Positions 3,102 through 32,305 of a stretch of DNA of 32,793 nucleotides are shown here, in pieces. The position numbers were made by a program, and so were the translations under genes. The DNA comes from a virus: the IMG/VR virus record IMGVR_UViG_3300030118_006862, positions 1 through 32,793 of that record. One strand, 5' to 3'. Under the pieces are notes generated by a model. The model searched no databases. It saw nothing but the letters and a program-made list of their open reading frames with translations, and was not told the DNA's origin. Numbering within the stretch: position 1 is the stretch's first letter; each line of letters opens with the position of its first letter.

Positions 3102-3130
3102 ATTATAATTAATAATATTTATATTTACAC
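3102..3130 (-). promoter_or_regulatory. sigma70-like promoter candidate for the kinase/TS-like and tdk genes
   Basis: Minus-strand GTGTAAA (3130-3124), 16 bases, then TATAAT (3107-3102), 18 bases before the ATG of the fusion gene. It has the same motif and spacing as the sites at 8641, 21617 and 24272. The spacer also contains TATAAATA, the T4 late promoter consensus, on the minus strand (3123-3116). It sits in the 72-base divergent gap shared with the plus-strand gene at 3156. Confidence 0.65.
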
Positions 3131-8614: not shown

Positions 8615-8640
8615 ATTATATACCTTTCTTGTTTTTATTT

Positions 8641-8669
8641 ATTATAATTAATTAATATTTAATTTACAC
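8641..8669 (-). promoter_or_regulatory. sigma70-like promoter candidate for the polymerase gene
   Basis: Minus-strand GTGTAAA (8669-8663), 16-base spacer, TATAAT (8646-8641), 26 bases ahead of the TTG start of the DnaE-type polymerase. It is one of the closest matches to the shared minus-strand promoter pattern in this window. It overlaps the leader region of the divergent gene at 8695. Confidence 0.65.
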
Positions 8670-13812: not shown

Positions 13813-13814
13813 TT

Positions 13815-14303
13815 TTATAACTCCATTACAATCAAAGAAGGATTATAATAAACATTGTTTTGAGCTGCATTATCATAATATGTTGCACGATGTAATTGTG
13901 CTTCGTTTGAAGTAGAATATGATCTTGCTACTAGTCTAAGATAATTTGAGTCAAAATTTTCTAATATAAATATTGGGCTAACTGGAATAAAGTAATGTTC
14001 ATTTTCAGTATCATCAGACGATACATTTACTTGACATCCTGGAATGTCGACAATATTTGAAGAAAAGTTATCATTGCTTTTTTGAAGCTTTACGTGTATA
14101 AAAACAGGCAAATCATTACTTACTCCTGATTCAAATTTTGTACTTAAAAAAAATGAATACTTATATACAATTTTGTTGTTTAAAAAAGTATTTTTGACTT
14201 CACATTTTGATCCAGTTAGTTCTACATAAGAAGTTGATATATATTGTGCAGAAGGATTGTTTTCTGTTTCCGTAAGAAAGAATTTTTTTAAATTATAAGT
14301 CAT
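13815..14303 (-). CDS. array member B1 (beta-rich virion-type protein)
   Basis: A 162-residue member of family B. I place the start at 14303, where ATG overlaps the TGA stop of C1 (ATGA), giving MTYNLKKFF, in line with the other members. An earlier in-frame ATG would extend into C1. Family marks shared with B2 and B3 are STSYVELTGSKCEV, VYKYSF, VKLQKSNDNFSSNIVDI, a LRLVARSYS segment and an ending in YYNPSLIVMEL. The segment VKLQKSNDxFSSNIVD is the most conserved stretch of the family. Translational coupling to C1 suggests fixed stoichiometry. The fold and role are inferred as for the other array members. Confidence 0.85.
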   Translation of the reverse strand: MTYNLKKFFLTETENNPSAQYISTSYVELTGSKCEVKNTFLNNKIVYKYSFFLSTKFESGVSNDLPVFIHVKLQKSNDNFSSNIVDIPGCQVNVSSDDTENEHYFIPVSPIFILENFDSNYLRLVARSYSTSNEAQLHRATYYDNAAQNNVYYNPSLIVMEL

Positions 14304-14791
14304 GACATCACCGAATATATTGAAACATGAGGGCAGCAACCAGATCCTTCACCACTAGTAGGTATTGTATTATAATTTCTTCCAAAAGTAAACTCTTCAG
14401 TATACCTATGAGCTCTTCCTGCTAGTCTTAGTTTTCTTTCACCGCTCCACGCATCTAGAACATAAGTATTTTTAATATTGTGCCATTGATAATCTGCTGA
14501 AGGTGACTCGTTTCCTTCTATTAATTGTGTACCGCTTATTGTTGTCCATGATGTCCCGCCATCAGTAGAATATTGTAGTCTAGAGCAAGAGTAAGAAGAT
14601 GTATTGTCTGGATTCCAAGCTATTTGAAAATTGCACTCATATATAACTTTAGTTGCGCCTGTAACTGGTGTATAAGTAACTTCAGTACCAGGATAATATA
14701 TAATCGTTGTAGTCACAGCTTGCTTTGTAAAACTAGTATCTACATTATGAACGTAGTTTTGTATTGGGCTTATTTCAGCTAAATAACTCAT
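14300..14791 (-). CDS. array member C1 (beta-rich virion-type protein)
   Basis: A 163-residue member of family C. It starts MSYLAEIS with AAGGAG about 12 bases upstream. Family marks shared with C2 and C3 are HNVDTSFTKQ, YYPGTEVTYTP, KVIYECNFQ, TRLQYS-like SRLQYSTDGG, WTTISGTQLIEG, W(S)GERKLRLAGRA and an ending of CPHVSIYSVMS. Its last ~35 coding bases are identical to those of C2, pointing to recent duplication or gene conversion. The stop overlaps the B1 start by four bases. Confidence 0.88.
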   Translation of the reverse strand: MSYLAEISPIQNYVHNVDTSFTKQAVTTTIIYYPGTEVTYTPVTGATKVIYECNFQIAWNPDNTSSYSCSRLQYSTDGGTSWTTISGTQLIEGNESPSADYQWHNIKNTYVLDAWSGERKLRLAGRAHRYTEEFTFGRNYNTIPTSGEGSGCCPHVSIYSVMS

Positions 14792-14817
14792 ATTTGTTTA
14801 TAACTCCTTATATATAA

Positions 14818-15303
14818 CTATATAGAATATACCAATAAGTTCGTATTGCAAAACTTTAAATAATTAGTAGTATCTGAAGAACCGTCCCAATGACTAATTG
14901 CATGATGAGGAGATTGATAATTTGCTTGATTATGTGATATATTTAGCCTTAAATCTCTAGAACCTGTCCAAGAAGGCAATACAAATCTATAGTGAATGTA
15001 CCACCTACCATCATTTGTTCCATAGTTTCCAAAATTTTTTCTATATTTATCATTAATTTCTGACCAGCTTCCTGAAACATATTGTTCTAAGTAAACAGCG
15101 TGAAATGTAGTACCTGATAATTTTTGAGTGTAATAAGATATTTCATACACGACTTTAGAAGAATTTACTTCTGGTTCGTATGTAATAGCTGATCCTAAAA
15201 TTATTGTTCCTGTGTTAGCAGAGTTTGATGTTTCTTGTGCTGATGTATGAGAAGTTACTAGATACTTTGGTTTGTTTAATATAGAATTTGGAATATATGT
15301 CAT
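14818..15303 (-). CDS. array member A2 (beta-rich virion-type protein)
   Basis: A 161-residue member of family A. The start at 15303 (MTYIPNS) is preferred over an ATG 12 bases upstream because GAGG lies seven bases before it and it restores the M-T/S-Y opening. It carries SKVVYEISYY, LPSWTGSRDLRL, ISHWDGSS and the ending FCNTNLLVYSI. The ribosome site overlaps the last codons of B2, and the stop of B2 is one base upstream, so translation is probably coupled. Its C-terminal coding end is nearly identical to those of A1 and A3. Confidence 0.87.
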   Translation of the reverse strand: MTYIPNSILNKPKYLVTSHTSAQETSNSANTGTIILGSAITYEPEVNSSKVVYEISYYTQKLSGTTFHAVYLEQYVSGSWSEINDKYRKNFGNYGTNDGRWYIHYRFVLPSWTGSRDLRLNISHNQANYQSPHHAISHWDGSSDTTNYLKFCNTNLLVYSI

Positions 15304-15304
15304 T

Positions 15305-15793
15305 TTATACCTCAATCACAAGCAAACTAGGATTATATTTAACATTACTAGAAGTACTACCATCATAATGTTCACTTGTATGTAATTGTGATTTTGTTGT
15401 TGATGAATATGAACGAGCTACAACTCTTAAAAACTGCGAATCAAAATCTTCTACAATAAAAAAGCATGAAGAAGCTTTATAATATGCTTCTGAATCATTA
15501 TATGTATCTCCTGATATTGAGAAATTCTGTCCTACAACATCAACTATATTAGAAGAAAAATTATCATTACTTTTTTGTAGCTTGATATTTAAATGAGGTT
15601 TTTTGCTATTAGGATAGTCTGTTAAGTCTACCATAGTATAAAACGTATATTTATATACTAATGTTGGATTAGGATTAACTGATTTTATCTCGCATTTAGA
15701 TCCAGTTAATTCTACATACGATGTTGATATATTTTGAGTTGATGGATTACTTTCTGTTTGAGCAAGAAAGAATTTGTTTAAATTATAAGTCAT
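15305..15793 (-). CDS. array member B2 (beta-rich virion-type protein)
   Basis: A 162-residue member of family B, closest to B1: shared MTYNLxKFFL, STSYVELTGSKCEI and LQKSNDNFSSNIVDV. The start at 15793 overlaps the C2 stop as ATGA, exactly as B1 overlaps C1. A longer reading is possible but lies inside C2. It ends in KYNPSLLVIEV, with the LRVVARSYS and LHTSEHYDGS segments matching family B. It has no secretion or membrane signal. Confidence 0.87.
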   Translation of the reverse strand: MTYNLNKFFLAQTESNPSTQNISTSYVELTGSKCEIKSVNPNPTLVYKYTFYTMVDLTDYPNSKKPHLNIKLQKSNDNFSSNIVDVVGQNFSISGDTYNDSEAYYKASSCFFIVEDFDSQFLRVVARSYSSTTKSQLHTSEHYDGSTSSNVKYNPSLLVIEV

Positions 15794-16293
15794 GACATCA
15801 CCGAATATATTGAAACATGAGGGCAAGATCCATTACCTTCGCCTGAACTGGGTATTGTATTGAAAGATCTTCCTATTTGATATTCAGAAGATGAATCATA
15901 TGCTCTACCTGAAAGTCTTATTTTTCTTTCTCCTGACCATGAATCAATAATAAATACAAAAGAACACATATGCCAATCATAATCATTTATAGTACTATTT
16001 TCTCCTTCCATCATTTGTGTACCACTTATTGTTGTCCAAGTACCGTTTGTATAGCTTGTACTGTTTGTAGAATATTGTAGTCTTGTGCACGGATATGAAT
16101 TTGTACCGTCAGGAGGCCAAGATAATTGTAAATTACATTCATATATAACTTTACTAGATCCAGCAGGAGGCGTATAAGTTACTCCTGTTCCTGGATAATA
16201 CTCTATTGTTGTAGATATTGACTCTTTAATAAAACTAGTATCTACATTGTGAATAAAATTTTGTATTTTTTTAGAATCTATTAAATAACTCAT
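15790..16293 (-). CDS. array member C2 (beta-rich virion-type protein)
   Basis: A 167-residue member of family C. I choose the ATG at 16293 (MSYLIDSKK), which has AAGGA about six bases upstream; an ATG 18 bases earlier lacks one. It shares with C1 HNVDTSFIKE, YYPGTGVTYTP, WTTISGTQMMEG, SWSGERKIRLSGRAY and CPHVSIYSVMS. A small insertion (NSTSYTNG) lengthens the loop before the WTTISG motif compared with C1 and C3. The final 40-base stretch spanning the C2/B2 junction recurs exactly at the C1/B1 junction, about 1490 bases away. Confidence 0.88.
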   Translation of the reverse strand: MSYLIDSKKIQNFIHNVDTSFIKESISTTIEYYPGTGVTYTPPAGSSKVIYECNLQLSWPPDGTNSYPCTRLQYSTNSTSYTNGTWTTISGTQMMEGENSTINDYDWHMCSFVFIIDSWSGERKIRLSGRAYDSSSEYQIGRSFNTIPSSGEGNGSCPHVSIYSVMS

Positions 16294-16317
16294 ATGAATC
16301 CTTAATAACAAATATAA

Positions 16318-16797
16318 TTATATAGAATATACCAACAAGTTTGTATTGCAAAATCTATTTGTTATAGATCCAGACCCATCCCAGTCTGTTACTTGATGAT
16401 ATGTAGCATCATAATTAGAGTAGTGAGGTGACGATCTTAATCTTAAGTCTCTAGAACCAGACCAAGTAGGTATTATATATCTCATGCATAAAAAGTCTCT
16501 AAAATATTGACCGTTACCAAAAACTCCAAAGTTTTTACCAAATTTAACATCTGGCTGTTCCCAACCGCTATTGTTCCACTCTAATATAATATGTTGAAAT
16601 CCATGTTTGTTTTTAATTTCAGCATAAAAACCAATTTCATAAACAACTTTGCTAGCTGTGCTATCTGGCGTATAAGATATTGTTGATCCGTTTACAGTAA
16701 TATATGTATTTGCTGTAGTTGAAGTTGTTTGTGCTGATGTATTTACTGTATAAATTGCTTGCGGGTTTTTTCCATAAGATAAATTCAAATAAGTCAT
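16318..16797 (-). CDS. array member A3 (beta-rich virion-type protein)
   Basis: A 159-residue member of family A. It starts MTYLNLSY with GAGG six bases upstream, the ribosome site lying in the last codons of B3. It has TSAQTTSTTANT near the N-terminus, SKVVYEIGFY, IPTWSGSRDLRL, HQVTDWDGSG and the invariant ending FCNTNLLVYSI. The middle is the most diverged of the family, including WEQPDVKFGKNF where A1 and A2 have WTEIDARF and WSEINDKY. Divergent centres with constant ends fit variation at an exposed binding face, which is inference. Confidence 0.87.
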   Translation of the reverse strand: MTYLNLSYGKNPQAIYTVNTSAQTTSTTANTYITVNGSTISYTPDSTASKVVYEIGFYAEIKNKHGFQHIILEWNNSGWEQPDVKFGKNFGVFGNGQYFRDFLCMRYIIPTWSGSRDLRLRSSPHYSNYDATYHQVTDWDGSGSITNRFCNTNLLVYSI

Positions 16798-16798
16798 A

Positions 16799-17278
16799 TT
16801 AAACCTCGAACACTACTAGTGATGTATTATAAAACTTGTCTGTTACAGTTGATCCATCAAAAAATCTATTTTCATGTGTCCATGCTGTTTTATTAGTATC
16901 GTAAGCTTTACAAACTAATCTTAAGTTATGAGGTGTTGAAAATGAATCGACTACAAATAATACTGTGCTTACTTTGTAAAAATGATCTGAGCCAGAAACT
17001 GTATCGTTAGCAATATTATAATTAGCGCCTTCTATGTCAACAATATTTGATGAAAACTCATCGTTACTTTTTTGAAGCTTTACATGTAAAAAAAATTTTG
17101 TGTCACTTGAATTTTGTGTAATATAAAAAGAAAACTTATAAACTAATTTATTTGTAGATAATTTTGGATCAACATAACAATTAGAACCTGTAATCTCTAC
17201 ATAAGAATCACTTATTATTTGATTTGCAGGTTGCAAAACAGTCTTGTTCAAATAGAATTTTTCTTTTATATATGACAT
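16799..17278 (-). CDS. array member B3 (beta-rich virion-type protein)
   Basis: A 159-residue member of family B, the most distant one. It starts MSYIKEKFYL with GGAT-type upstream pairing. Shared marks are SDSYVEITGSNCYV, LVYKFSFY, VKLQKSNDEFSSNIVDI, LRLVCKAYD, FFDGS and the ending YNTSLVVFEV. It follows C3 with a 4-base gap rather than an overlap, so this junction differs from the two ATGA junctions. Together with C3 and A3 it forms the promoter-proximal and probably oldest or least homogenised cassette. Confidence 0.86.
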   Translation of the reverse strand: MSYIKEKFYLNKTVLQPANQIISDSYVEITGSNCYVDPKLSTNKLVYKFSFYITQNSSDTKFFLHVKLQKSNDEFSSNIVDIEGANYNIANDTVSGSDHFYKVSTVLFVVDSFSTPHNLRLVCKAYDTNKTAWTHENRFFDGSTVTDKFYNTSLVVFEV

Positions 17279-17282
17279 TATT

Positions 17283-17765
17283 TTATCCTACAGAGTATAT
17301 TAAAACATGCGGGCAAGCTGAAGCTCCTTCTGTGTAAGAACCTAAAAATTGTCTACCAATTGTATACTCACTATAGTCAGCATAAGCTCTTCCAGCAAGC
17401 CTGATTTTTCTTTCGCCAATCCACGTATTTAATGTATATATATACGTCATTTGAAGCCAGTCCATATCAGTTTCTAAAGAGTATGTACCCTCTATAGACA
17501 AAGTATCGTCTATAGTTGTCCACGCTGAGCCACCATCTGTAGAGTATTGGACTCGAGTGCAAGGATATGAACCTAATCCATCAGGATTCCAAGCTAACGT
17601 GTAGTTAACTTCATATATAACATTTGTAGAATTTGCTGCGGGTGTATAAACAACTTCAGTTCCGTTGTAACCAACAACAGTCGTAGATATTACTTGCTTA
17701 GTAAAACCAGCTGTATCTACTGTAGATACATAATTACTAGCAAAGCTTCTTTTAATATAAGTCAT
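17283..17765 (-). CDS. array member C3 (beta-rich virion-type protein)
   Basis: A 160-residue member of family C and the first gene of the array. It starts MTYIKRSFAS with GAGG ahead of the ATG. Shared marks are VDTAGFTKQVISTTVV, YNGTEVVYTPA, VIYEVNYTLAWNPDG, TRVQYSTDGG, WTTIDDTLSIEG, WIGERKIRLAGRAY and the ending CPHVLIYSVG. The family's pairing of a WNPDG loop with a later WxGERKxRL strand is fully kept. No promoter matching the shared minus-strand pattern lies in the 34 bases before it, so transcription probably continues from upstream genes or uses a different late signal. Confidence 0.86.
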   Translation of the reverse strand: MTYIKRSFASNYVSTVDTAGFTKQVISTTVVGYNGTEVVYTPAANSTNVIYEVNYTLAWNPDGLGSYPCTRVQYSTDGGSAWTTIDDTLSIEGTYSLETDMDWLQMTYIYTLNTWIGERKIRLAGRAYADYSEYTIGRQFLGSYTEGASACPHVLIYSVG

Positions 17766-17799: not shown

Positions 17800-18567
17800 T
17801 TACACGGCTTTTTTTAGGTAAATAAGATGTCTTGTCCCGTCATAGTTTTTGTTTTCAATATTATCAATTAACCAATAATGACCGCTTTGCTTTATCTCTC
17901 TATAAAAGTCGTCCATTAGCACAACATCAATATTAACACCTTGTTCTTTTAAAAGATCAGCAGCAAGCAAATTAGAGTTAAATTTTCTATCTCTTCTAAC
18001 AGCTTTTGTTTCAACGTATCTGTCTTCTTCAGGATGATAAAAGTCAGGCGTATAAACTTTTTCTTTGCTACCATATAATACTTTAAAAGTTTTATACTCG
18101 TATATATATTTTCTACCAATTGCATTACAATATCTTGCATAGTCAGCTTCTAAAGAAGACTTAAAAAAGTATTTAGGATTCAGGTCTTTTCTAAATCCTT
18201 TTCTACCATTAGAAGGTATATCTGATAGCCCACTACTTTGTGCAACAAAAGAGCATGTTCTACTACAAAACTTAGTTTCTTGTCCTACAGGCTTCTGATA
18301 TTCTTTGCCGCATGTTTGACATTTTAAGTCTACTCTTGCTTTCTTTACGTCTTTTTCATAGCATGCTCTTGAGCAATATGTTTTTGCTCTTCCTGCTTTA
18401 AACTTTTTTTTACAAACTTTACAGCTATATTCTTCTTTAAAACTTCTTGCATCGTCCATACATGTTTTAGAACAGTATTTAGAATTTTTTGCCTTTGAAG
18501 GAGGCATCTTGTATTCTTCACCACATTGAACACATTTTAATAATACTTTGTTACTTTTTCTTCCCAT
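17800..18567 (-). CDS. zinc-finger PD-(D/E)XK nuclease, possible homing endonuclease
   Basis: A 255-residue protein. The N-terminal half has three consecutive Cys4 zinc modules: C12/C15/C32/C36, C49/C52/C65/C69 and C83/C86/C101/C105, each of the form CxxC...YCS..C. Residues ~136-230 read as a PD-(D/E)XK nuclease core: SSLEADYARYCNAIG (E140), then VYTPDFY (D175) and YVETKA (E186, K188). Free-standing endonucleases that pair short zinc modules with a Vsr-like or PD-(D/E)XK core are common mobile genes in large phages, so a homing role is plausible. A role in DNA repair or packaging cannot be excluded. It has a GGAG ribosome site and lies directly upstream of the nine-gene array. Confidence 0.85.
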   Translation of the reverse strand: MGRKSNKVLLKCVQCGEEYKMPPSKAKNSKYCSKTCMDDARSFKEEYSCKVCKKKFKAGRAKTYCSRACYEKDVKKARVDLKCQTCGKEYQKPVGQETKFCSRTCSFVAQSSGLSDIPSNGRKGFRKDLNPKYFFKSSLEADYARYCNAIGRKYIYEYKTFKVLYGSKEKVYTPDFYHPEEDRYVETKAVRRDRKFNSNLLAADLLKEQGVNIDVVLMDDFYREIKQSGHYWLIDNIENKNYDGTRHLIYLKKAV

Positions 18568-20630: not shown

Positions 20631-21590
20631 TTAAAATTGCTCTTTAATATTGCTGATGTATGATATATCTTCATTCCACATTTTTGTAAATATTTTTTCT
20701 TGACCTGAGTTATTTCCATTTATTTCTTCTCTTCTACAAGAATAAATGGAATCATTTTCATTAAATTCAAACAAGTCATTTTTAGGTTCAGGATGATAAA
20801 GATTTGTACCTCTTGATGTAAACGTTCCATCTGGTTGCTCTACTCTAAACGTCCTAACATAATGCATATCAGGCTTGTTAAAGTCTAAACAGGTTGCAAC
20901 CTCAGGAATTCTATCACATATAATCCTTGCAAATCTAGTTGCAATAATATTATCAACTTCAGGTTGAATTTGAACATCTTGACGTTGCTTAATAAATCCA
21001 ATTAAATCTTTTAAATTAAATCTTGCAATATAAAATGTTTCTAAACACTTTGGAAGAATAACTCTTGCATCCATCATTGAAACTTTTTTGCTATCGACCA
21101 TTTCTGCATATAACTGTTTAGCATCATTAGCAATTTTTTGAAATCTATTATAAAAACTTGAATTTTCAACAGACTCAGGGACTAGAGCATTATCAAACCT
21201 TAAGTCTCTGTCTCCTGTACATTGTGCTGCAAAAGAACCAGCACGATGCCTAATTAAATGGGTAACAGTTTGTGTATCAATACCACTTATTTTAAAAGTA
21301 AATCCTAAACACTCCATAGGCGTTGGAAGAGCTCTAAAATTTAAAACGTCTTGCAAGTTTTGCGACAAATCTTTTTGAGAAACATTATTAAAACTTGTTA
21401 ACTCAGGCGTGTCAGCCCACGTTGCTTTTGTCATATTCCAAGCAATGTTTTGAGCTTGCTCTCTTGTAGGACCATCAATTAACTCGATCTTTAAAGACTC
21501 TAAATTATTTATAAATTGTGTTCTAATAGCTTGATTAAACTTAAGAACCATTGGAAGGTTAACTGGTACTAAATCATTATTAATTGGCAA
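20631..21590 (-). CDS. ThyX-family paralogue (FAD-dependent thymidylate synthase-like), variant active site
   Basis: A 319-residue, longer-than-usual member of the ThyX family. The signature RHR is at 114-116, but the following seven residues (AGSFAAQ) lead to Cys124 instead of the family Ser (RHRx7S). The usual Asn-Glu before it is Ala-Gln. Further ThyX marks are ARVILPKCLETFYIARFNL and FIKQRQDVQIQPEVD. A second, canonical ThyX lies at 24295. I infer a divergent role such as a modified pyrimidine or loss of dUMP methylation. The TTG start has a strong AGGAG seven bases upstream, and a matching promoter precedes it. Confidence 0.85.
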   Translation of the reverse strand: MPINNDLVPVNLPMVLKFNQAIRTQFINNLESLKIELIDGPTREQAQNIAWNMTKATWADTPELTSFNNVSQKDLSQNLQDVLNFRALPTPMECLGFTFKISGIDTQTVTHLIRHRAGSFAAQCTGDRDLRFDNALVPESVENSSFYNRFQKIANDAKQLYAEMVDSKKVSMMDARVILPKCLETFYIARFNLKDLIGFIKQRQDVQIQPEVDNIIATRFARIICDRIPEVATCLDFNKPDMHYVRTFRVEQPDGTFTSRGTNLYHPEPKNDLFEFNENDSIYSCRREEINGNNSGQEKIFTKMWNEDISYISNIKEQF

Positions 21591-21616
21591 TTTAATCTCC
21601 TTTTATTAATATCTTT

Positions 21617-21645
21617 ATTATAATTTAATTTTTTAATTTTTACAC
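21617..21645 (-). promoter_or_regulatory. sigma70-like promoter candidate for the ThyX-like operon
   Basis: Minus-strand GTGTAAA (21645-21639), 16-base A/T-only spacer, TATAAT (21622-21617), 26 bases ahead of the TTG start. The arrangement mirrors the polymerase promoter at 8641-8669. It probably drives the leftward run of ThyX-like, deoxyribosyltransferase, two small genes, the epimerase and perhaps the nuclease. Confidence 0.65.
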
Positions 21646-22576: not shown

Positions 22577-23220
22577 TTATTACCTTTTATTTGCTGATAT
22601 ATTGATATAATTTCAGATTTTATTTTTTTGTCTTTTAATTTATTATTTAAGTATTTAATAAAATTTACACCTAATATTTCTGACTCTAATAAGAAATACT
22701 CAAACTCTGCAAACATTAAAATATTATTTTTTCCTTCTAGTTTAATTCCCATTCTATTTCTTAGTATAGCATATTGAATTTCCCTTGCTAACGAAGGAAG
22801 TAAAGAATACTTTATTTTTTGATAGTCTTTTATAGAGCATTCAATTTTTAATATTGAATCAACTATTCCAGAATCAAATCTATCTTTCATATCATAATAA
22901 AATCTAGTCTGATTAAAGTTTTCTTTAAACTCAATTTTATTTTTAATAGACATGTCAATTGTTAGAGATGTTAAAGGTGAATAGAAAAAGTAATGATTAA
23001 AATTTATTTTGTTTTCAAACAACTTAAACTTTTCAAGTTCGTTTTCATCTATTATAGTTATAGTATAGCCATAAGAGTCAACGCTTACATTTATTACTAA
23101 CTCTTTTAGCATACCTAAATAATAAATTAAAGGTTCTTCTATTATGTTATTCCAAATTTGATTTGCTAAACTTGATGCTCTAAAACTTTTTTTATAGTAG
23201 ATAGCATCAAGTAAAATCAT
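22573..23220 (-). CDS. hypothetical protein, 215 aa
   Basis: I do not recognise it. The protein is rich in Ile, Lys, Asn, Tyr and Phe. An early segment (KELVINVSVDSYGYTITIID) is beta-like, and later ones (LPSLAREIQYAILRNRMG) are helical. It follows the MazG-like gene by 2 bases and is translationally coupled to the MazG-HAD gene by an ATGA overlap, so it probably belongs to the same nucleotide-related unit. No membrane segment is evident despite the hydrophobic patches. Confidence 0.8.
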   Translation of the reverse strand: MILLDAIYYKKSFRASSLANQIWNNIIEEPLIYYLGMLKELVINVSVDSYGYTITIIDENELEKFKLFENKINFNHYFFYSPLTSLTIDMSIKNKIEFKENFNQTRFYYDMKDRFDSGIVDSILKIECSIKDYQKIKYSLLPSLAREIQYAILRNRMGIKLEGKNNILMFAEFEYFLLESEILGVNFIKYLNNKLKDKKIKSEIISIYQQIKGNK

Positions 23221-24231: not shown

Positions 24232-24271
24232 TGCTAAAATCCTTTTCAACAATGTTAAATATTATTAATTT

Positions 24272-24300
24272 ATTATAAAATATTTATATTTTTTTTACAC
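24272..24300 (-). promoter_or_regulatory. sigma70-like promoter candidate
   Basis: Minus-strand GTGTAAA (24300-24294) overlaps the last codons and stop of thyX. It is followed after 16 bases by TATAAT (24277-24272), 40 bases ahead of the ATG at 24231. TATAAATA is present in the spacer (24288-24281), as at 1321 and 3116. It would drive the leftward unit from 24231 to 21650. Confidence 0.65.
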
Positions 24301-24987
24301 ACTTTTTTTATAACAGTCTAAAGTTATCGGCCAAAGATCTTTTATTATATCTAACATTCCGTTTGCTAACTGCTGTATTTCCCACTGTGCTCCTTCATGT
24401 GTTCTAAGACCAATAAATTTAAGTATATTATTTAAATTTGCAGTAGCATAATATTCAGTATACATTGCTTGTGGTAATATTGCTCTTGCCTGTTCCCTAC
24501 ATATTCCATTTTCTAGCATGCTTTCAAACAAAGAAATAGACTCTTTGCAATGCTCCTTATATAAAGTTGAAGCTTTAGCTGCACCTCCCCATGTTCCAAT
24601 ATCAAGCTCTGGGTTAATTTTTTCTTCTATATTAGAAGACTGTCTATTTGACTTATGTTGTGTTCTAAATTCTTCAGGAACATAAAATTCTATATTTGAA
24701 TTAGTATACCTTCTAGAAATCTCGTTATATGACCAAGTTCTATGTCTATGATGTTGACTTCTAACAAATAACGGAACTTTAATTCTAAAAGTTGCTATAT
24801 TATGCTCTAATGTAGATGTATGCTTATGCCTAATTAAATAATTAATAAGTTTTTCATCTTTTTCATCTAAAGTTTCTTTATGTACTCCAAAAGAAACTCT
24901 TGCAGAATTTACAATAGTTATATCTTTCCCCATCGAGTCTACTAACTCTATTGACCCAATACCATCTTGATATAAATATTTTTTCAT
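24295..24987 (-). CDS. thyX: flavin-dependent thymidylate synthase (ThyX)
   Basis: It makes dTMP from dUMP using methylenetetrahydrofolate and FAD. The full signature RSQHHRHRTWSYNEISRRY is present (RHR at 81-83, Ser91), plus ARVSFGVHKET at the N-terminus and EQARAILPQAMYTEYYATANL and FIGLRTHEGAQWEIQ later. Length is 230 residues from the ATG at 24987, chosen because AGGAG lies five bases upstream; a TTG 30 bases earlier lacks one. It lies between the endolysin and the next unit, with its own promoter candidate. With dCMP deaminase, thymidine kinase and dUTPase it provides a phage dTMP supply. Confidence 0.95.
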   Translation of the reverse strand: MKKYLYQDGIGSIELVDSMGKDITIVNSARVSFGVHKETLDEKDEKLINYLIRHKHTSTLEHNIATFRIKVPLFVRSQHHRHRTWSYNEISRRYTNSNIEFYVPEEFRTQHKSNRQSSNIEEKINPELDIGTWGGAAKASTLYKEHCKESISLFESMLENGICREQARAILPQAMYTEYYATANLNNILKFIGLRTHEGAQWEIQQLANGMLDIIKDLWPITLDCYKKSV

Positions 24988-25007
24988 TTGTTCTCCTATT
25001 TTATTTG

Positions 25008-25036
25008 ATAATAACAAATAATTTTAAATTTTACAC
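25008..25036 (-). promoter_or_regulatory. sigma70-like promoter candidate for thyX
   Basis: Minus-strand GTGTAAA (25036-25030), 16-base spacer, TATTAT (25013-25008), 20 bases ahead of the thyX ATG. One element departs from the common TATAAT (as in the site at 1308), so it is a weaker match. Confidence 0.55.
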
Positions 25037-25041: not shown

Positions 25042-25818
25042 TTATAATCCGTAGTATAATTTTTCTGCCCAAGGAATAACATCCCACTTTTTAGCTGAAA
25101 TGTTATGATGACCTACAATACTAAATTCTTTTGCTTCTTTAACAGGATAGACTTTATTGTCTTCACATATAGGCTTTTCTTCTAACTCAACAGCATATCT
25201 TAATGCTGATAAAAAGTCCCTGCTAATAGATGCAAATTCATCACCTAACATTGCAATTTCACCGCTAGGAACTCTTTTATCACCACCTGTATATTCTTCT
25301 AATGTTGCATCAGGATACCACTTACTTGTTTTATCCCAGTACTTTGCTAAAGGATGCATACAAATATCAACGCCTATAGAATACTTATTAAACTTTCCTG
25401 CATGATAAGCAACTAATCCTGTATCTAAACATTGTAATATTTCATATTTATTTTTTTTATGATTTTTTCCAATAAGGAAATGTGAAGATACATGCCTTCC
25501 TCTTGCTAGATTAAAAACATTGTAACAGTGTCTAGAGTTTAAACCACCCCAATGAACACAAATAGATTCAGGATCTGTTTTTCTTAAATACCAGTTTTTT
25601 GTTCCATCATCTAATTCATATAGCGGCGCTGACATATCTATTTCAATAGGGAAATCAATAGGTACAACTTTTCCCATATGAAATATAACATTTCCATAAT
25701 GTTCAATTACAGCTTTATGAGTTCCTGGACCGTATATTCCATCAGCATAAGCCCCTACTTCTTCTTGAAGCTTTTTTACGTATGCTTTGTTTTTATTTAT
25801 GTGTTTAAACTGCTCCAT
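25042..25818 (-). CDS. N-acetylmuramoyl-L-alanine amidase endolysin (Amidase_2 / PGRP fold)
   Basis: It cleaves the amide between muramic acid and L-Ala of the cell wall at lysis. At 258 residues it has a short peptidoglycan-binding-like N-terminus (VKKLQEEVGAYADGIYG) and an Amidase_2 domain: VHWGG (H89), SSHFLIGKN, LVAYHAG, YSIGVDIC and SIVGHHNISAKKWDVIPW. H89, H237 and D246 fit the zinc ligands. No signal peptide or transmembrane segment is visible, so release would need a holin, which I do not find in the window. I start it at the ATG at 25818, with AAGG six bases upstream. Those bases lie in the hairpin at 25823-25852. Confidence 0.92.
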   Translation of the reverse strand: MEQFKHINKNKAYVKKLQEEVGAYADGIYGPGTHKAVIEHYGNVIFHMGKVVPIDFPIEIDMSAPLYELDDGTKNWYLRKTDPESICVHWGGLNSRHCYNVFNLARGRHVSSHFLIGKNHKKNKYEILQCLDTGLVAYHAGKFNKYSIGVDICMHPLAKYWDKTSKWYPDATLEEYTGGDKRVPSGEIAMLGDEFASISRDFLSALRYAVELEEKPICEDNKVYPVKEAKEFSIVGHHNISAKKWDVIPWAEKLYYGL

Positions 25819-25822
25819 AATC

Positions 25823-25852
25823 AACCTTAACTTTCTTTGTAGTTTTAAGGTT
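25823..25852 (-). promoter_or_regulatory. hairpin covering the endolysin ribosome-binding site
   Basis: The minus strand reads AACCTTAA, a 14-base loop, then TTAAGGTT (an 8-bp perfect stem), and the AAGG of the endolysin ribosome site lies in the 3' arm. It falls between the clpP stop and the endolysin ATG. In T4 a similar hairpin blocks translation of lysozyme from read-through transcripts and is absent from late transcripts. Here the same logic is an inference; the stem is A/T-rich and only moderately stable. Confidence 0.45.
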
Positions 25853-25854
25853 AA

Positions 25855-26457
25855 TTATTCCACTACGATGTCAACATTTACATTTATTTTCATCTCTGGT
25901 ATTCTTATATGATCTATTAAACCATGTTGTTTTGCCTCTTCAGCTTCTAAAAACCAATCTGAATGACCTTTATCATGAATTAAATTTAGAAAATAATCGT
26001 CTGCTTTTCCACAATTTCTTGCCATCATTGTATAAACTTTTTTATTCAATCTTTCAGCTTCTCTAACATCTGACTTAAGTTCTTCTATTTTTCCAAAAGC
26101 AAAAGAAGATACATCATGAATCATCATTGTTGCATCTTTATCCATAAACCTAAGACCTTCAGATCCAAATGATGCAAGAATAGCTCCACAGCTCATGGCT
26201 TTACCATGAACAATAGTAGCAACAGGTACCCTAGAAGCTTTTATAGAAGATATCATAGCCATAAGTGAGTAAGCTTGTCCTCCAAAAGAGTCTATTTCAA
26301 TTGGAATAACTTGCTGGCCACTATTTTGTGCATGGCACATTCTTTCATTAAATTTAATAACAGACTCTTCAGTAAATTCATTAACAGTAATAATAACAGG
26401 CTGTTGCCTTAATTCAATTTCTTTAATAAGCGGTGATATTTCTGTAAAATAATGCAT
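25855..26457 (-). CDS. clpP: ClpP-like serine protease
   Basis: A 200-residue cytosolic Ser protease of the ClpP family. The catalytic triad is readable: Ser89 in GKAMSCGAIL, His114 in MMIHDVSS and probably Asp162; Ser-to-His spacing is 25 as in E. coli ClpP. SFGGQAYS and WFLEAEEAKQHGLID are further family marks. Phage copies may act with host Clp ATPases or degrade host factors; no Clp ATPase is in this window. A head-maturation role is less likely given its place in the nucleotide/replication run. The ribosome site before the ATG is weak and distant. Confidence 0.92.
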   Translation of the reverse strand: MHYFTEISPLIKEIELRQQPVIITVNEFTEESVIKFNERMCHAQNSGQQVIPIEIDSFGGQAYSLMAMISSIKASRVPVATIVHGKAMSCGAILASFGSEGLRFMDKDATMMIHDVSSFAFGKIEELKSDVREAERLNKKVYTMMARNCGKADDYFLNLIHDKGHSDWFLEAEEAKQHGLIDHIRIPEMKINVNVDIVVE

Positions 26458-26463: not shown

Positions 26464-26712
26464 CTATAGACCTCTTAACTCTTCAATGTTTTTATAACCA
26501 TTAAGTCTATTAACTTCTTTATTACTTGATAAATTTATTTTAACAAAAGTAGGTACAGACTTTACTTCGTGAATAACAAATTTTTCCCAATTACTGCTAT
26601 CAAGTATTTCAATGTTTAATTCGTTAATAATTTCATCTGTTAACTGTGACTTTGCCAAGTTACAAGGTGCACAAGATTTAGAACTAAAAAATAGTATTTT
26701 TGTTTCTTTCAT
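26464..26712 (-). CDS. thioredoxin/glutaredoxin-like protein
   Basis: An 82-residue redox protein, probably the electron donor for the adjacent ribonucleotide reductase, as T4 NrdC is for its own. The active site CAPC (C14, C17) follows ILFFSSKS, and the cis-Pro motif is SVPTF. The start ATG follows GAGGTAATT. It is immediately downstream of nrdB, in the same orientation, and 6 bases before clpP in the run. It is shorter than bacterial thioredoxins and more like phage glutaredoxin-type proteins. Confidence 0.88.
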   Translation of the reverse strand: MKETKILFFSSKSCAPCNLAKSQLTDEIINELNIEILDSSNWEKFVIHEVKSVPTFVKINLSSNKEVNRLNGYKNIEELRGL

Positions 26713-26738
26713 AATTACCTCATTTAAATTTTGATTAA

Positions 26739-27701
26739 TTAAATATTATCCCAACCCCAGTCATCACCGCTCATACCATCTGCATTATAGTCTGTAACAG
26801 TGCCTTCAAAGAAGTTTTTAAACGAATCACCATTTATAATCCAGTCTAACCAGTCTAGGGGGTTGTCTTTTACTTTAAAATTAGGTTTAAGTCCAAGTTG
26901 TATAAGTCGTCTATCAGCAAGGTATCTAATGTATTCTTTTACTTCAGACTTTTCAAGACCTTCTATTGATCCCATTTCATAAGCTAAATCAATAACTTTA
27001 TCTTCTAAATTAACAGCATCTCTATACATTTGATATACTTCTTTTTTAAATTTGTCATTTACAATTCTAGGATGCTCACTTAAGTATTCTCTAAATAATC
27101 TTGTCATTCCTTGAACATGCATTGTTTCATCTCTAATGCTCCATTCAACAATTTCACACATACCTTTCATTTTACCAAATCTTTGATAATTTAAAAGCAT
27201 AATAAACGCTGAAAATAACGACATTCCTTCATTACATGCAGATTGTGCTATTGCAAGACCAAGACCTTTTTTAGTACCAACATCATTGTTTTGCATAAAC
27301 TCTATTTTATCACTCATCTCTTGGTATTCTAGAAAAGCACCATATTCTTCTTCAGGCAAACCTAGAGTATCGTTTAAAAGAGCATAGCTACGTTGATGCG
27401 TACCTTCACGATTTGCAAAGCTTAATAGCATACTCCTAATTTCATTGTTTTTAAATTTAGGAATAAACAGATCACAATAGTTTCCGCCGACTTGAACATC
27501 ACTTTGTGTAAACAACCTTAGTATTTGAGTGATATGATTTTTTTCTTCTTTAGATATTTTACCGCCTTTCCACTGGTTAACATCTTCTTGAAGCTTAGCT
27601 TCCCAGCTTCCCCAGTGAATCTTCTCATGTGATTCAGCAATTTCCATTGCCCACTGATATTTGAAAGGTTTATATGTTTTATTATACTTTAGTAATGACA
27701 T
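26739..27701 (-). CDS. nrdB: ribonucleoside-diphosphate reductase beta subunit
   Basis: The radical-generating subunit of class I ribonucleotide reductase, 320 residues. Metal ligands are readable in order: Asp in FTQSDV, Glu and His in ANREGTHQRSY (with the radical Tyr kept), Glu in ACNEGMSLF, and Glu and His in IRDETMHVQGM. The C-terminal tail is acidic and ends GDDWGWDNI, the region that docks on the alpha subunit. Its ribosome site AAGGATAATATA overlaps the last codons of nrdA, so the two are translationally coupled. Confidence 0.96.
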   Translation of the reverse strand: MSLLKYNKTYKPFKYQWAMEIAESHEKIHWGSWEAKLQEDVNQWKGGKISKEEKNHITQILRLFTQSDVQVGGNYCDLFIPKFKNNEIRSMLLSFANREGTHQRSYALLNDTLGLPEEEYGAFLEYQEMSDKIEFMQNNDVGTKKGLGLAIAQSACNEGMSLFSAFIMLLNYQRFGKMKGMCEIVEWSIRDETMHVQGMTRLFREYLSEHPRIVNDKFKKEVYQMYRDAVNLEDKVIDLAYEMGSIEGLEKSEVKEYIRYLADRRLIQLGLKPNFKVKDNPLDWLDWIINGDSFKNFFEGTVTDYNADGMSGDDWGWDNI

Positions 27702-27705
27702 TATA

Positions 27706-29490
27706 TTATCCTTGACAACTTAGACATTCATCGTCTTCAAAGTCTTTTAATTTGTTTTGTTCTACTTTTTGGCTAACCTTTTCAGCTGATGCTCCTGCAT
27801 TAGTTCTTAAGTAGTATAATCCTTTTACTTTTCTTTTCCAAGCTCTTACATGAACATTGTTAACAACTTTTTTTGAAGTTCCTGCAGGAAAAAACAAGTT
27901 CAAGCTTTGACCTTGGCAAATAAATTCTTGTCTGTCAGCAGCATGATCTACAACCCATCTTTGATCTAGTTCAAAAGCAGTTTTAAATACTTCTTTTGTC
28001 CATTCTGATAAGTAATCTAAATGTTGCACAGATCCTTCGTTTAAAATAATTGACTTCCATTGCTTTTTTAGCCAATCGTATTTATTTTCTATCTTATTTT
28101 CTTCAGCGTAACTTATTAATACTTTTTCTAGCTCTGGATTCTTAACCAAATAAGATCCTACTCTAGTCCTGTGAGTATATGCATTACTTTTCCAAGGTTC
28201 AATAGAAGGACTTGTGCAAGCTATAATAGAAGAATTAGCATTAGGAGCAATTGCAATTAAATGTGAATTTCTTATACCTAGACCTTTAGCATCTGGACAT
28301 TCACCTTTTTCTTTACCAAGTTTAGCAGTTTGATTTTTTGCTCTGATTTGTATTTCTTCAAATATCTGAGTATTCATACCTTTTGCAATTACAGATTCAA
28401 ACGGAATACCTTTTGATTGCAACAAAGCATGGAATCCCATTGTTCCAAGTCCTAAGCTTCTTTCAGAGTATGCTGAATATTTTGCTTTGTGAAGTGAGTT
28501 TGGTGCATTAAGTATAAAGAAAGATATAACATTGTCAAGATAAGTAATTAAATCTTCTACTATTTTTGTATCTTTCCACTCTTCGTACTTTGCTAAATTA
28601 AGAGAACTTAAGCAACATACAGCACTTCTATCTGTAGACGTAGGCAAATAAATTTCAGAGCACAAGTTACTCCCATGGATTTCAAGTCCTAAGTCTTTTT
28701 GATATTGTGGCAACTTTCTATTTGCTTCGTCTATAAAACAAAGATATGGCTCTCCTGTTCTAAATCTAATTTTTAAGATTGTTTTCCATAAAGATCTTGC
28801 TTTCATTGTATCTCTAATTGTTTTATCATTAGGATCAACTAAATTCCAGTCTTCATCATTTATTACAGCTTCCATAAACTTATCTGTAATGTTTATTGCA
28901 TTATTAAGGTTGAAACATTTTCTATTAACATCACCACCTGTTGGTACTCTTATGTTTAAAAACTCTAAAATATCAGGATGACTAACATCTATATAAGCTG
29001 CGTAAGATCCTTTTCTAGTTTTACCTTGTCTATAAGCTGTCATATCAGAGTCGACAGTCTTTATAAAGGGAATTGGGCCTGGAGATATATCACTATTAGA
29101 TCTAATACTGCTCCAATGACCACCAACACCTCCTCCTTTTACTGACATCCATCGTAATTCATCAGTATGTTCAATTAGGCCTTCTAAAGTATCGTCAACA
29201 TAAGTTAAAAAACAGCTTATAGGCATTCCTTTAGCAGCTTCTCCTGGTTTTGGTGCATTTGACAATATCGGTGAGCTAAACATAAACCACTGTTTAGATG
29301 CGTAATTGTATATTCTTTGTGCTAATTCAATATCACTTTCGCTAAAAGCTAGAGCAGCTCTTGCAAAACTTTCCTGAGGTGAGGTTTCATCTTTGATCAT
29401 ATAGTAGTTTTTTAATAGATTTTTTGAAAAGTCATTTAGCTTTTCATCTAAACTCGTATCAATTTCAATTCCACAATACTCTTTAATCAT
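27706..29490 (-). CDS. nrdA: ribonucleoside-diphosphate reductase alpha subunit
   Basis: The catalytic subunit of class I ribonucleotide reductase, 594 residues. Redox-active Cys are seen in PISCFLTY, SNLCSEIYLP (also the Asn-Cys-Glu radical site) and VCCLSSLNL, plus a C-terminal CLSCQG pair that exchanges disulfides with thioredoxin. The radical-transfer pair is in LYYLRTN. It lacks an N-terminal ATP-cone, so it probably has no overall activity regulation by dATP, as in many phage enzymes. The ATG follows AAAGAGGGATAT. It is followed by nrdB and the thioredoxin-like gene, a complete dNTP-making unit. Confidence 0.96.
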   Translation of the reverse strand: MIKEYCGIEIDTSLDEKLNDFSKNLLKNYYMIKDETSPQESFARAALAFSESDIELAQRIYNYASKQWFMFSSPILSNAPKPGEAAKGMPISCFLTYVDDTLEGLIEHTDELRWMSVKGGGVGGHWSSIRSNSDISPGPIPFIKTVDSDMTAYRQGKTRKGSYAAYIDVSHPDILEFLNIRVPTGGDVNRKCFNLNNAINITDKFMEAVINDEDWNLVDPNDKTIRDTMKARSLWKTILKIRFRTGEPYLCFIDEANRKLPQYQKDLGLEIHGSNLCSEIYLPTSTDRSAVCCLSSLNLAKYEEWKDTKIVEDLITYLDNVISFFILNAPNSLHKAKYSAYSERSLGLGTMGFHALLQSKGIPFESVIAKGMNTQIFEEIQIRAKNQTAKLGKEKGECPDAKGLGIRNSHLIAIAPNANSSIIACTSPSIEPWKSNAYTHRTRVGSYLVKNPELEKVLISYAEENKIENKYDWLKKQWKSIILNEGSVQHLDYLSEWTKEVFKTAFELDQRWVVDHAADRQEFICQGQSLNLFFPAGTSKKVVNNVHVRAWKRKVKGLYYLRTNAGASAEKVSQKVEQNKLKDFEDDECLSCQG

Positions 29491-29501
29491 ATATCCCTCT
29501 T

Positions 29502-29972
29502 TTAATCTGAACTTCCGATTTTTCCTTCTTTTCTCAAGGATTTATCGGTTAATCTTACATATTCTTTTTCACCAATAACAGTAAAATGATTATCACACTT
29601 TACAACAACAATTTGTACTGGCAGCTTGTCGCCCTCTTTAATAATTTTATCTTCATTTGAGAGATTTACTAAGTTGACAAAAACTTCACCAGTATAACCA
29701 GAATCTATTACTCCTGCTCTTACTTTCAATGTATCTTTAACAATAGATCCTCTTTCTCTTATAAGCGCAACGTAACCTTTAGGAACTAATAAATGAACTC
29801 CTGTATTTATTAAGCACTTTTGATTTTCAACTATTGGTTTAACTATTACATCACTGCCAGAATTATATAAATCAATACCAGCACTCTCTCCATTATATGC
29901 AGGAGTATATTCTTTTACATTATTGTTTTCTAAAACTTTTATTAAAGATTCATTGCAGAAAATTTTAATCAT
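29502..29972 (-). CDS. dut: dUTP pyrophosphatase (trimeric dUTPase)
   Basis: It hydrolyses dUTP to dUMP, keeping uracil out of DNA and feeding ThyX. At 156 residues the five dUTPase motifs appear as SAGIDLYNSG, RERGSIV (variant of PRSG), GVIDSGYTGEV, GDKLPVQIVV and a C-terminal RKEGKIGSSD. Motif 2 departs from the usual PRSGLA. The gene overlaps the helicase gene by four bases (ATGA), so translation of the two is coupled. Confidence 0.93.
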   Translation of the reverse strand: MIKIFCNESLIKVLENNNVKEYTPAYNGESAGIDLYNSGSDVIVKPIVENQKCLINTGVHLLVPKGYVALIRERGSIVKDTLKVRAGVIDSGYTGEVFVNLVNLSNEDKIIKEGDKLPVQIVVVKCDNHFTVIGEKEYVRLTDKSLRKEGKIGSSD

Positions 29973-31339
29973 TTTTTATTAACCTCATTCCATTTTTCTT
30001 TTAGTTTTTGTTTTATGCTATGTTGATCTTGAGCTACTGCCTCATTTAAAGTTAGTGCATTATCATCAAGTATTGTAAATTTAGACATAGCAGTATCAAT
30101 ATTAATTGGAAATAGTAGACCATCTTTGCCTGCTCGGTTCTTTGCAACAAATATTCTTCCTGAGCCATGTGCTTTTTCCATAGGCTTTCTACTAATTGAT
30201 AGAACAACATCAGCTACTTGTGCTTTACCATAAGCTTCGCCTAAATTATCAAGACCTACAACTTCAGACTTAGAAGAATCTCTGTTAGCTTGTGAAGCTG
30301 TCCAAATAGGTATATTAAGATCAACTGCAAGATTTCTTAATTCTGTATAGATTAGTTTTAGCTCATGCCTTAAAGAGTCATATGCCTTAGATGACTTCAT
30401 TACATCAGCGTAATCAACTGTTACAAGACTTGGTTTTATGCCTTTTAATGTAAGCTTTTCTATATGGTTTCTTAACGTCATTACAGAAGCTGAACCTGTT
30501 GGGTATTCTTTAATGATAAGTTTACCTAACTCCATATTTTTGTATTTATCTATTACTTCTTTTTTTCTTTCTATTACTTCATTAGAAGGTATACTACACA
30601 GATGTGAGTCGTATCTTTTTCCTGTTTCGTGTTCAGAAAGCTCAAAAGTATAGTGAATAACATTTTTACCTGCTAACATTGCAGCACATCCCATAGCAAC
30701 TAAGAAATGAGATTTACCTACACCTGTATTTGCTGCAATAACGCCTAACTCACCTCTACCTAAACCTCCTCTTAGAATTTCTTGTGAATCAATTTTTTCT
30801 AATCCTGTTGGACAGACCTGTCTATTAATCTGTACGAACCTAGCTTCAATATCATCAAAGAAGTTATGACCAGTTGAATTAGGCATACCAACTGATATTG
30901 CATTCTTCATAATGTTAAGAACAGATTCATACTTTTCAGTTTGTATTAGCTCTACACTTTGTTCTAAAGCTTCTTTAAATGCTTGTCTTTTACAAAACTC
31001 TAATGACTTATCTTTTACATACTTTAAGTCACCCATGTCTGGGTTTGTTTTCATTCTATGAAGATACTCAATTATTTGATCTCTTAAAACAATGTCCTTA
31101 GACTTTGTAAGATCTTCTTTGATAATAGTTATAAGTATTGTAAGTGTTGGAAATGTTTTGTATTTGTTGTAGTAAGAAAAGTATTTTTGACAAAGATATG
31201 AAAGATATTTTAAATCAAAGTAATCTGGATCTACTACTTCGATCATTTGTGCTGCCCAAGTTTGGTCAGACAGCATACTTTGAAAAACTTTTTCTTGAAA
31301 AGGCTTACCGAATTTTGAGAAGTTTCTTTCTAAACTCAT
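29969..31339 (-). CDS. DnaB-type replicative DNA helicase
   Basis: A 456-residue hexameric helicase that opens the replication fork. The C-terminal RecA-like ATPase domain has Walker A ANTGVGKS (residues 203-210), FELSEHETGKRYDSHL, Walker B LVTVDYADVM and WTASQANRDSS. The N-terminal ~150 residues are helical and fit the DnaB N-terminal dimerisation domain. The C-terminal end is Lys-rich. No primase gene is visible in this window. The ATG at 31339 lies 6 bases after the exonuclease stop. Confidence 0.93.
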   Translation of the reverse strand: MSLERNFSKFGKPFQEKVFQSMLSDQTWAAQMIEVVDPDYFDLKYLSYLCQKYFSYYNKYKTFPTLTILITIIKEDLTKSKDIVLRDQIIEYLHRMKTNPDMGDLKYVKDKSLEFCKRQAFKEALEQSVELIQTEKYESVLNIMKNAISVGMPNSTGHNFFDDIEARFVQINRQVCPTGLEKIDSQEILRGGLGRGELGVIAANTGVGKSHFLVAMGCAAMLAGKNVIHYTFELSEHETGKRYDSHLCSIPSNEVIERKKEVIDKYKNMELGKLIIKEYPTGSASVMTLRNHIEKLTLKGIKPSLVTVDYADVMKSSKAYDSLRHELKLIYTELRNLAVDLNIPIWTASQANRDSSKSEVVGLDNLGEAYGKAQVADVVLSISRKPMEKAHGSGRIFVAKNRAGKDGLLFPINIDTAMSKFTILDDNALTLNEAVAQDQHSIKQKLKEKWNEVNKK

Positions 31340-31345
31340 TTATTA

Positions 31346-32305
31346 TTAAGTCCTTATATTTACTTTTAAGGTTAAAAAGAAAGAGTGAATATCAAACATA
31401 TTAAGACCTTGTTGATTTAAGATTTTTATAAGGTCCATTTTATTTAATTTTTCTTCTTTATTATCATATTGATAGTTTATTGATTGTATTTGTGTTGCGC
31501 TTAACATTGCAGAGTCTAGATACATTAATTTCCAATTTTTTATTAAGTCCTGTTCAGACTCTACAATTTCTTTAAACAGCTTTAATTTGCTGCCGTTTTT
31601 AATTTGTTCCTTAGACTTAATGACAATATCATTAATTGACAAATTATTACACACACCTAATTCTGGAAATCTTTTAACCATCACTTTGAATCCTGCACCT
31701 TTAACACCTTTGAGACCATCACTTTGGTCTCCTGCAAAGCATCTTGCAAGACAAAAATTTTCTGATGTGATTTTCCATTTATCTAATACATATTGTGAAT
31801 CGATTAAAATTCTTTTATTTGGAGACCAAATTTTTGTCTTCTCATCCATTAACTGATAATAGTCTTTGTCTGATGTCACAATTATTTTTTTAAAGTCTGT
31901 CTTTTTTGTTTTACATAGGTATGCAATAATATCGTCAGCTTCACAGTCATTAACATAGATTTGTGTAACAGGAGTTTTATAGAGTATTTTTATTAGCGTT
32001 TTAAGCTGAAAGTCTCTATTCTCAACTGTATCTGGTATATCACCAATTAGTTCGTTTCTATTAAGTGATACTGGTCTTCTACCGTTTTTATAGTTAGGAT
32101 CTATAGATTTTCTTCTTAAAGATCCGCCGCCTTCCCAAACTACTACTATTTTACATGGAGTAAATCTTTCAGATAGCTGCTGAATGTTTTTTAACATTCC
32201 TACAATGCCACCACATAGTTGTCCATTAATAGACTTAGCAGGATTTGCAGCAAAATGTCTCATAAAAACATTCAAGCCATCAATATAAATCTCTGGCTTG
32301 TTCAT
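31346..32305 (-). CDS. 5'-3' exonuclease / flap endonuclease (FEN family)
   Basis: A 319-residue structure-specific nuclease, like T4 RNase H or T5 exonuclease, that removes RNA primers and flaps. It begins EIYIDGLNVFMRHF (first catalytic Asp), has NYKNGRRPV, NDCEADDIIAYL, TSDKDYYQL and a helix-hairpin-helix region with DQSDGLKGVKGAGF. The acidic residues expected for the metal sites are present. The start ATG lies 18 bases after the RecA stop, and the gene is co-directional with RecA, helicase and dUTPase. Confidence 0.93.
   Translation of the reverse strand: MNKPEIYIDGLNVFMRHFAANPAKSINGQLCGGIVGMLKNIQQLSERFTPCKIVVVWEGGGSLRRKSIDPNYKNGRRPVSLNRNELIGDIPDTVENRDFQLKTLIKILYKTPVTQIYVNDCEADDIIAYLCKTKKTDFKKIIVTSDKDYYQLMDEKTKIWSPNKRILIDSQYVLDKWKITSENFCLARCFAGDQSDGLKGVKGAGFKVMVKRFPELGVCNNLSINDIVIKSKEQIKNGSKLKLFKEIVESEQDLIKNWKLMYLDSAMLSATQIQSINYQYDNKEEKLNKMDLIKILNQQGLNMFDIHSFFLTLKVNIRT

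Follow-up and report, generated by a model that had tools for sequence, protein, structure and literature searches.

A hairpin masking the endolysin Shine–Dalgarno sequence at the clpP–endolysin junction of an uncultured marine phage

Introduction

The closest described counterpart of the junction analyzed here lies upstream of the muramidase gene e of phage T4, which begins 37 nt beyond the nudE stop codon. According to the part of PMC3014915 drawn on here, long T4 transcripts form the e structure and yield ≈100-fold less lysozyme than transcripts lacking it, transcripts from two late promoters do not carry the 5′ part of the hairpin, and some T4-type phages harbor e without the structure. 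Both promoters have the sequence TATAAATA and are found at −34 and −21, in the arm and the loop, respectively. A related leader hairpin is reportedly that of mobE in phage Aeh1, an entry in the reference list of a review; neither mobE nor T4 soc, 49, or I-TevI is a lysis gene, unlike the endolysin gene considered here. The leaders of these three T4 genes place the Shine–Dalgarno (SD) sequence or the AUG in a helix, as does the leader described below (PMC3014915, same part).

A second arrangement is translational coupling, in which a downstream gene is often silenced by structure over its ribosome-binding site and opened by translation of the upstream gene, the lysis gene of MS2 included, and in which efficiency drops with distance (PMC12548453, in the portion used here). 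In the MS2 coat–lysis, Escherichia coli rpmI–rplT, and f1 VII–IX pairs described in that portion, the structure over the downstream site lies near or within reach of upstream ribosomes, as it does here; spacings are −50, +52, and −4 nt in these systems and +36 nt in our case, for which coupling is predicted.

Here we analyze the leader of an endolysin gene in a 32,793-base virus record (IMGVR_UViG_3300030118_006862), the whole length of which we refer to as the window. The gene follows clpP after 36 nt, and when the two leaders are folded side by side over the same span, minimum free energies (MFEs) of −14.9 kcal/mol for T4 e and −13.5 kcal/mol for the window are obtained; a preliminary description had likened this hairpin to that of T4, and position and predicted energy are indeed close. 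In both cases the SD sequence and/or AUG of a gene for a lysis enzyme is within a stable intergenic hairpin, the enzyme being an Amidase_2 protein here rather than a muramidase. Transcription from far upstream, which has been described for T4 (PMC3014915, in part), would have to be assumed in the window, and the two T4-type late promoters have no exact counterpart in it. The window matches the T4 brake and, as far as can be seen, not the bypass. The hairpin is a new example of an already known type of control; in the portions of the open-licence literature on lysis-gene hairpins and coupling covered here, we recognized no work on this marine lineage and met no ClpP-dependent lysis gate.

Results

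The window has a GC content of 29.6%, and its minus strand encodes, in order, a 5′–3′ exonuclease, a DnaB-like helicase, dUTPase, NrdA, NrdB, a thioredoxin-like protein, ClpP, an Amidase_2 endolysin, and ThyX; the endolysin gene looks like the end of one long replication/nucleotide operon (Table 1). Two ThyX-like proteins are encoded in the window (24295–25017 and 20631–21590, minus strand), and nine successive ORFs of similar size (159–174 aa; 13333–17765, minus strand) are possible paralogues. Viral contigs hold endolysin relatives at 51 loci; a further scan based on an alignment likewise yielded 51, of which two (L196 and L198) were new; a tblastn search of 50,697 named phage records with the endolysin gave no match. 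Two of the relatives' contigs encode tail-sheath, major-head, and baseplate proteins, a UvsX-like recombinase, and a gp32-like protein. Some T4-like proteins are therefore present in this phage's lineage, which we infer to be one of large, uncultured marine myoviruses with distant T4 affinities. Neither PF02916 (gp45) nor T4 gp55 was matched in any of seven contigs, in searches that had no working positive control.

Table 1. Features of the clpP–endolysin region and related elements (window coordinates unless a locus is named)
Feature	Position	Strand	Basis or remark
Endolysin, 258 aa, Amidase_2	25042..25818	−	Pfam E 2.4e-9; PHROG endolysin
ClpP-like protease, 200 aa	25855..26457	−	Pfam E 2.9e-25; PHROG head maturation protease / ATP-dependent protease
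Thioredoxin-like, NrdB, NrdA, dUTPase, DnaB-like helicase, 5′–3′ exonuclease (upstream of clpP)	26464..32305	−	
Hairpin 5′ arm; pairs with SD arm, includes clpP stop codon	25845..25858	−	Inverted repeat, RNA fold
Hairpin loop, 14 nt	25831..25844	−	Three more weak pairs predicted at loop edge
Hairpin 3′ arm; carries SD and first two bases of endolysin ATG	25817..25830	−	
Endolysin SD, AAGG	25825..25828	−	
clpP stop codon TAA, within hairpin 5′ arm	25855..25857	−	
clpP–endolysin spacer, 36 nt	25819..25854	−	
GTGTAAAT-N15-TATAATA, exact	3101–3130, 8640–8669	−	Candidate promoter class
GTGTAAAT-N15-TATAATA, one mismatch	21616–21645, 22641–22670, 24271–24300	−	Candidate promoter class
SD-masking hairpin after 201–203-aa gene	L213:14903–15130	−	
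SD-masking hairpin after 201–203-aa gene	L200:11426–11725	+	
SD-masking hairpin after 201–203-aa gene	Loci L271–L292		
Stem before ≈1,100-aa gene	L199:14013–17378	+	z −4.0
Stem before ≈1,100-aa gene	L219, start 16646	−	z −4.6
Stem before ≈1,100-aa gene	L229, start 5448	−	z −1.0
Stem before ≈1,100-aa gene	L235, start 3300	+	z −1.7

An SD-masking hairpin is present upstream of the endolysin gene. An inverted-repeat search returned arms of 14 nt each that are 93% complementary and lie 14 nt apart, and the RNA fold of −13.5 kcal/mol has a z score of −4.8, with none of 200 shuffles equally stable; a repeat of the shuffle test on the clpP–endolysin spacer gave z −5.3 and none of 1000. The preliminary description had reported an 8-bp stem (25823–25830 with 25845–25852) that hides the endolysin ribosome-binding site, and both points hold: these 8 bp form the core of the longer stem, and the AAGG, which begins 10 nt 5′ of the ATG (25828 to 25825, with the A of the ATG at 25818), is in the 3′ arm and has a predicted unpaired probability of 0.01. 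That description did not mention that the stem also includes the stop codon of clpP, as well as the A and T of the endolysin ATG. The endolysin leader has the lowest fold energy of the window's 41 leaders; the second strongest (−10.3 kcal/mol) is that of an endonuclease-like gene (17800–18567, minus strand; L201:10134–10913, plus strand), in which the start codon is paired and the SD sequence is at the loop, and which also folds strongly in the contig of L001 (−12.8 kcal/mol). An intrinsic terminator was considered and rejected (no T-run follows the stem, and a terminator scan lists nothing at the site), and no family of Rfam 15 reached its gathering threshold anywhere in the window.

We surveyed 582 SD-bearing leaders from six contigs; an MFE as low is found in three of them (the endolysin leader included) and an SD sequence as inaccessible in 10, with the endolysin leader alone combining both traits. 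In 60 sets of the 582 leaders with shuffled upstream parts, a mean of 0.37 hairpins this strong fell over an SD sequence and 19 sets held at least one, so that a single case in six contigs is unremarkable by itself; scaled to the 33 surveyed window genes, the expectation is about 0.02. SD-occluding folds below −10 kcal/mol are in slight excess overall (6 observed versus 2.4 expected), and weaker ones are at chance. Given these frequencies, the case for function must rest on conservation.

Conservation was examined in 50 rows (the window and L001–L049), in which the gene directly 5′ of the endolysin is clpP in 31, another ORF in 14, and was not obtained in 5. The clpP–endolysin gap is 24 to 37 nt in 14 of the 31 rows, 10 to 12 nt in 11, where the clpP stop codon touches or adjoins the SD sequence, and 99 to 108 nt in the remaining 6, where a further small gene is possible. 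In a phylogeny built from 39 distinct endolysins, that of the window is on a long branch and clusters with L001 and L041 (97/99), joined next by L002 and L003/L005 (93/91, drawn open); the sister group is represented by L008, L037, L011, and L047, and the 10- to 12-nt gaps include its members L008, L037, and L038. From 49 rows we obtained 34 distinct endolysin leaders, excluding L033 (leader too short), L198, L050, and L051 (without a gene start); L196, which is outside the 34, has an open leader (SD unpaired 0.59). The four lowest SD accessibilities among the 34 belong to the window (0.01), L041 (0.20), L002 (0.22), and L001 (0.26), followed by values of 0.31 to 0.34; in L003–L005 another gene follows clpP, and the endolysin SD accessibility is 0.58.

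All four leaders with low accessibility keep a CCTT or TCTT facing the AAGG across spacers that vary from 24 to 36 nt, and arm and loop sequences differ among near relatives. The strength of the stem is uneven: spacer-only z scores are −5.3 for the window, −2.1 for L041, −0.4 for L001, and +0.1 for L002, such that the stem is distinct from shuffles in the window, weakly so in L041, and at shuffle level in the other two, and the energy needed to open SD and AUG falls in the same order (12.8, 8.8, 4.8, and 3.4 kcal/mol). Taken together, the 34 endolysin leaders do not differ from those of other genes in MFE (p 0.25) or SD accessibility (p 0.19). The masked SD sequence is thus a feature of the window's clade, of uneven strength, and not of the family, in which the site is open elsewhere. 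A DNA pattern derived from the relatives' spacer matched seven contigs, three of them already known (L243–L245), and a palindrome pattern matched 24 stretches. At L057 and L058 (both 4001–4660, plus strand), clpP is followed by a different gene, whose SD sequence is predicted to be partly paired within a stem.

Promoter-like sequences were analyzed in fetched pieces of the lineage (L199–L239, both strands). GTGTAAAT-N15-TATAATA occurs at 23 exact and 48 one-mismatch sites, as compared with no exact and one one-mismatch site for the reversed pattern, and represents a clear candidate class of phage promoter. All five window copies are downstream of the endolysin on the minus strand; none was found in the 6,975 nt upstream, where the best match (three mismatches, 4.1 kb away) is at background level. 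In the contig of L001 (G007), a site of this class precedes the gp32-like gene (L200:11747), after which come, on the same strand, a UvsX-like gene, a putative exonuclease-to-thioredoxin-like set (matched to that of the window by size and order), clpP, and the endolysin.

Late-type sites are less distinct. A motif search of leaders without GTGTA returned AT-rich or SD patterns, and 30 structural-gene leaders gave a TATAATTAGA-like motif too weak for calling single promoters. At three motif widths, the score of this motif in the window's endolysin leader is no better than that of random stretches (null fractions 0.64, 0.36, and 0.07), and the clpP–endolysin spacer holds no exact copy of a GTGTAAAT-class or late-type site. 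Exact TATAAATA or TATAATTA is found in 11 of 67 structural-gene leaders, 69 of 858 other leaders, and none of the 34 distinct endolysin leaders, the window's included; the window's 5′ arm carries AATAATTA, one mismatch from TATAATTA, at −41. With enrichment this mild and a one-mismatch copy in the arm, the absence of an exact late core is weak evidence, and a divergent late promoter could be missed since the motif itself is weak. We rejected exact TATAAATA as a lineage promoter; it is not clearly enriched over its reversed form on both strands of seven contigs of relatives (346 versus 307 sites; 77, 103, 45, 30, 29, 33, and 29 per contig versus 73, 77, 41, 33, 34, 27, and 22). In L001, where the endolysin ATG is at 5001 (plus strand), the loop of the weaker hairpin carries AATAAATA at −21, which is the position of the second TATAAATA of T4.

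For the leader taken from −45, the computed energy required to open SD and AUG is 14.6 kcal/mol. When a ribosome positioned at the stop codon of clpP masks the 5′ arm, this falls to 2.4 to 3.0 kcal/mol (the stop was set one base too far upstream in this calculation, which should not matter for the 11- to 15-nt masks), and for RNAs starting at −30, −26, and −20 it falls to 2.9, 2.8, and 2.2 kcal/mol. Relief is thus similar by a late start or by a ribosome at the clpP stop, and either route of release is possible.

A second type of hairpin follows a gene of 201 to 203 aa, the end of which, CC-N-TTT-T(A/G)A, can pair with the SD sequence of the next gene. The analysis covered 22 loci and L200, which give 18 distinct leaders. 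In this layout the stop codon of the first gene falls in the 5′ part (helix or loop) and the SD sequence in the 3′ arm, and 14 of the 18 leaders have z scores of −1.8 or below. The three pairs beside the CC/GG core remain intact in 13, 15, and 14 of the 18, the first occurring as A-U, G-U, and U-A, with a permutation p of 0.007 for the three jointly and 0.14 for the first alone. The arm is also coding sequence for the C terminus of the upstream protein, a constraint that may by itself keep the arm conserved. Among the hairpins of this layout encountered here, the one at this junction is the best conserved. AT-rich loops such as TAATAAATATATAATATA in these hairpins resemble late-type sites. Long stems over the SD sequence, unrelated in sequence, are also found before an unannotated gene of ≈1,100 aa among the structural genes (Table 1).

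Discussion

The hairpin probably acts to slow translation of the endolysin gene at the end of what looks like a long operon. The fuller reading that we tentatively prefer is a brake specific to this lineage, acting on a presumed long replication-operon mRNA and relieved at least in part by ribosomes that end clpP translation. It builds on the computed hairpin, the burial of the SD sequence, the stop codon in the arm, and the lack of a recognizable promoter of the gene's own; folding in the cell, lowered translation, and opening by clpP ribosomes would be its steps. At a free junction, the 5′ arm would pair with the SD sequence and ATG and endolysin synthesis would be slow, whereas a ribosome terminating clpP would cover the 5′ arm and free the SD sequence, the 36-nt gap giving a second ribosome roughly enough room to bind. 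The endolysin would then be made at a low level linked to clpP translation through RNA unfolding. As expected of coupled genes, the clpP stop codon lies within the structure that masks the downstream SD sequence; the 10- to 12-nt gaps of the 11 related rows have coupling geometry; and the recurrence of the stop-in-arm layout after the 201- to 203-aa gene also speaks for this reading. Against it count the weak stems in relatives, the 34 endolysin sites that are no more structured than those of other genes, and the drop of coupling efficiency with distance (PMC12548453, in part). The upstream stop of T4 e is equally near, yet its long transcripts reportedly yield ≈100-fold less lysozyme, so a nearby stop need not unlock such a stem.

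That the spacer is AT-rich sequence with a chance palindrome in one phage, without selected function, we consider somewhat unlikely. An equally strong hairpin arose in 19 of 60 shuffled sets, the strong stem is confined to the window with L001 and L002 at shuffle level, and the site is open across the lineage, all as chance would have it; yet no spacer shuffle among 1000 reaches the hairpin, only about 0.02 are expected among the window's surveyed genes, and the CCTT/TCTT–AAGG pairing persists in four phages despite changing spacer length. These same four have the lowest SD accessibilities, which shared ancestry explains in part. Narrow conservation is not unusual, given T4-type phages that carry e without the structure. 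An element of another kind is very unlikely. Inverted repeats at operon junctions are often terminators, RNase processing sites, or protein-binding operators, a general point in favor of such an element here, whereas the arm and loop sequences change among near relatives.

The preliminary description proposed a timer of the T4 gene e type. In the form weighed here, the hairpin would block read-through mRNA and a late transcript starting inside or after the 5′ arm would escape. The near-identical layout and energy, the low opening cost of RNAs starting at −30 to −20, the AATAATTA core in the 5′ arm and AATAAATA in the L001 loop, and the position of the endolysin downstream of replication genes in a lineage with T4-like proteins are all in keeping with it. 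The separate late 5′ end did not find support, on evidence that is itself weak: no exact TATAAATA was found in the window and neither core in any of the 34 leaders, the structural-gene motif is at the level of random stretches, TATAAATA hardly exceeds its reversed form, and gp55 was unmatched (again with no positive control). Of the claim that clpP read-through transcripts are blocked, the masking stands, whereas the clpP stop in the 5′ arm, where a terminating ribosome could open the stem, was overlooked. That description had named a stem not conserved in relatives, together with no separate late 5′ end, as grounds against the timer; what we find goes halfway, with a stem confined to the nearest relatives and mostly weak and no late start recognized. 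A late bypass of the T4 type is quite unlikely in our estimation, and coupling to clpP, tentative as it is, is the likelier means of relief.

Should the brake prove functional, an uncultured marine lineage would have a lysis gene under translational lock in the manner of T4 or MS2, with an endolysin that, at the end of the replication operon, would otherwise be made early. The relatives form a natural series, from a stop codon touching the SD sequence through a spacer without a stem and a weak stem to a strong one. It is an unlikely but broader proposition that SD-masking hairpins starting at the preceding stop codon are a recurring device of these marine phages, used by the window's clade between clpP and the endolysin and, on a far wider scale, between the 201- to 203-aa gene and a small gene (or longer fusion), as in the 18 distinct leaders. 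Were this so, the output of the lysis enzyme would depend on translation of the ClpP-like protease.
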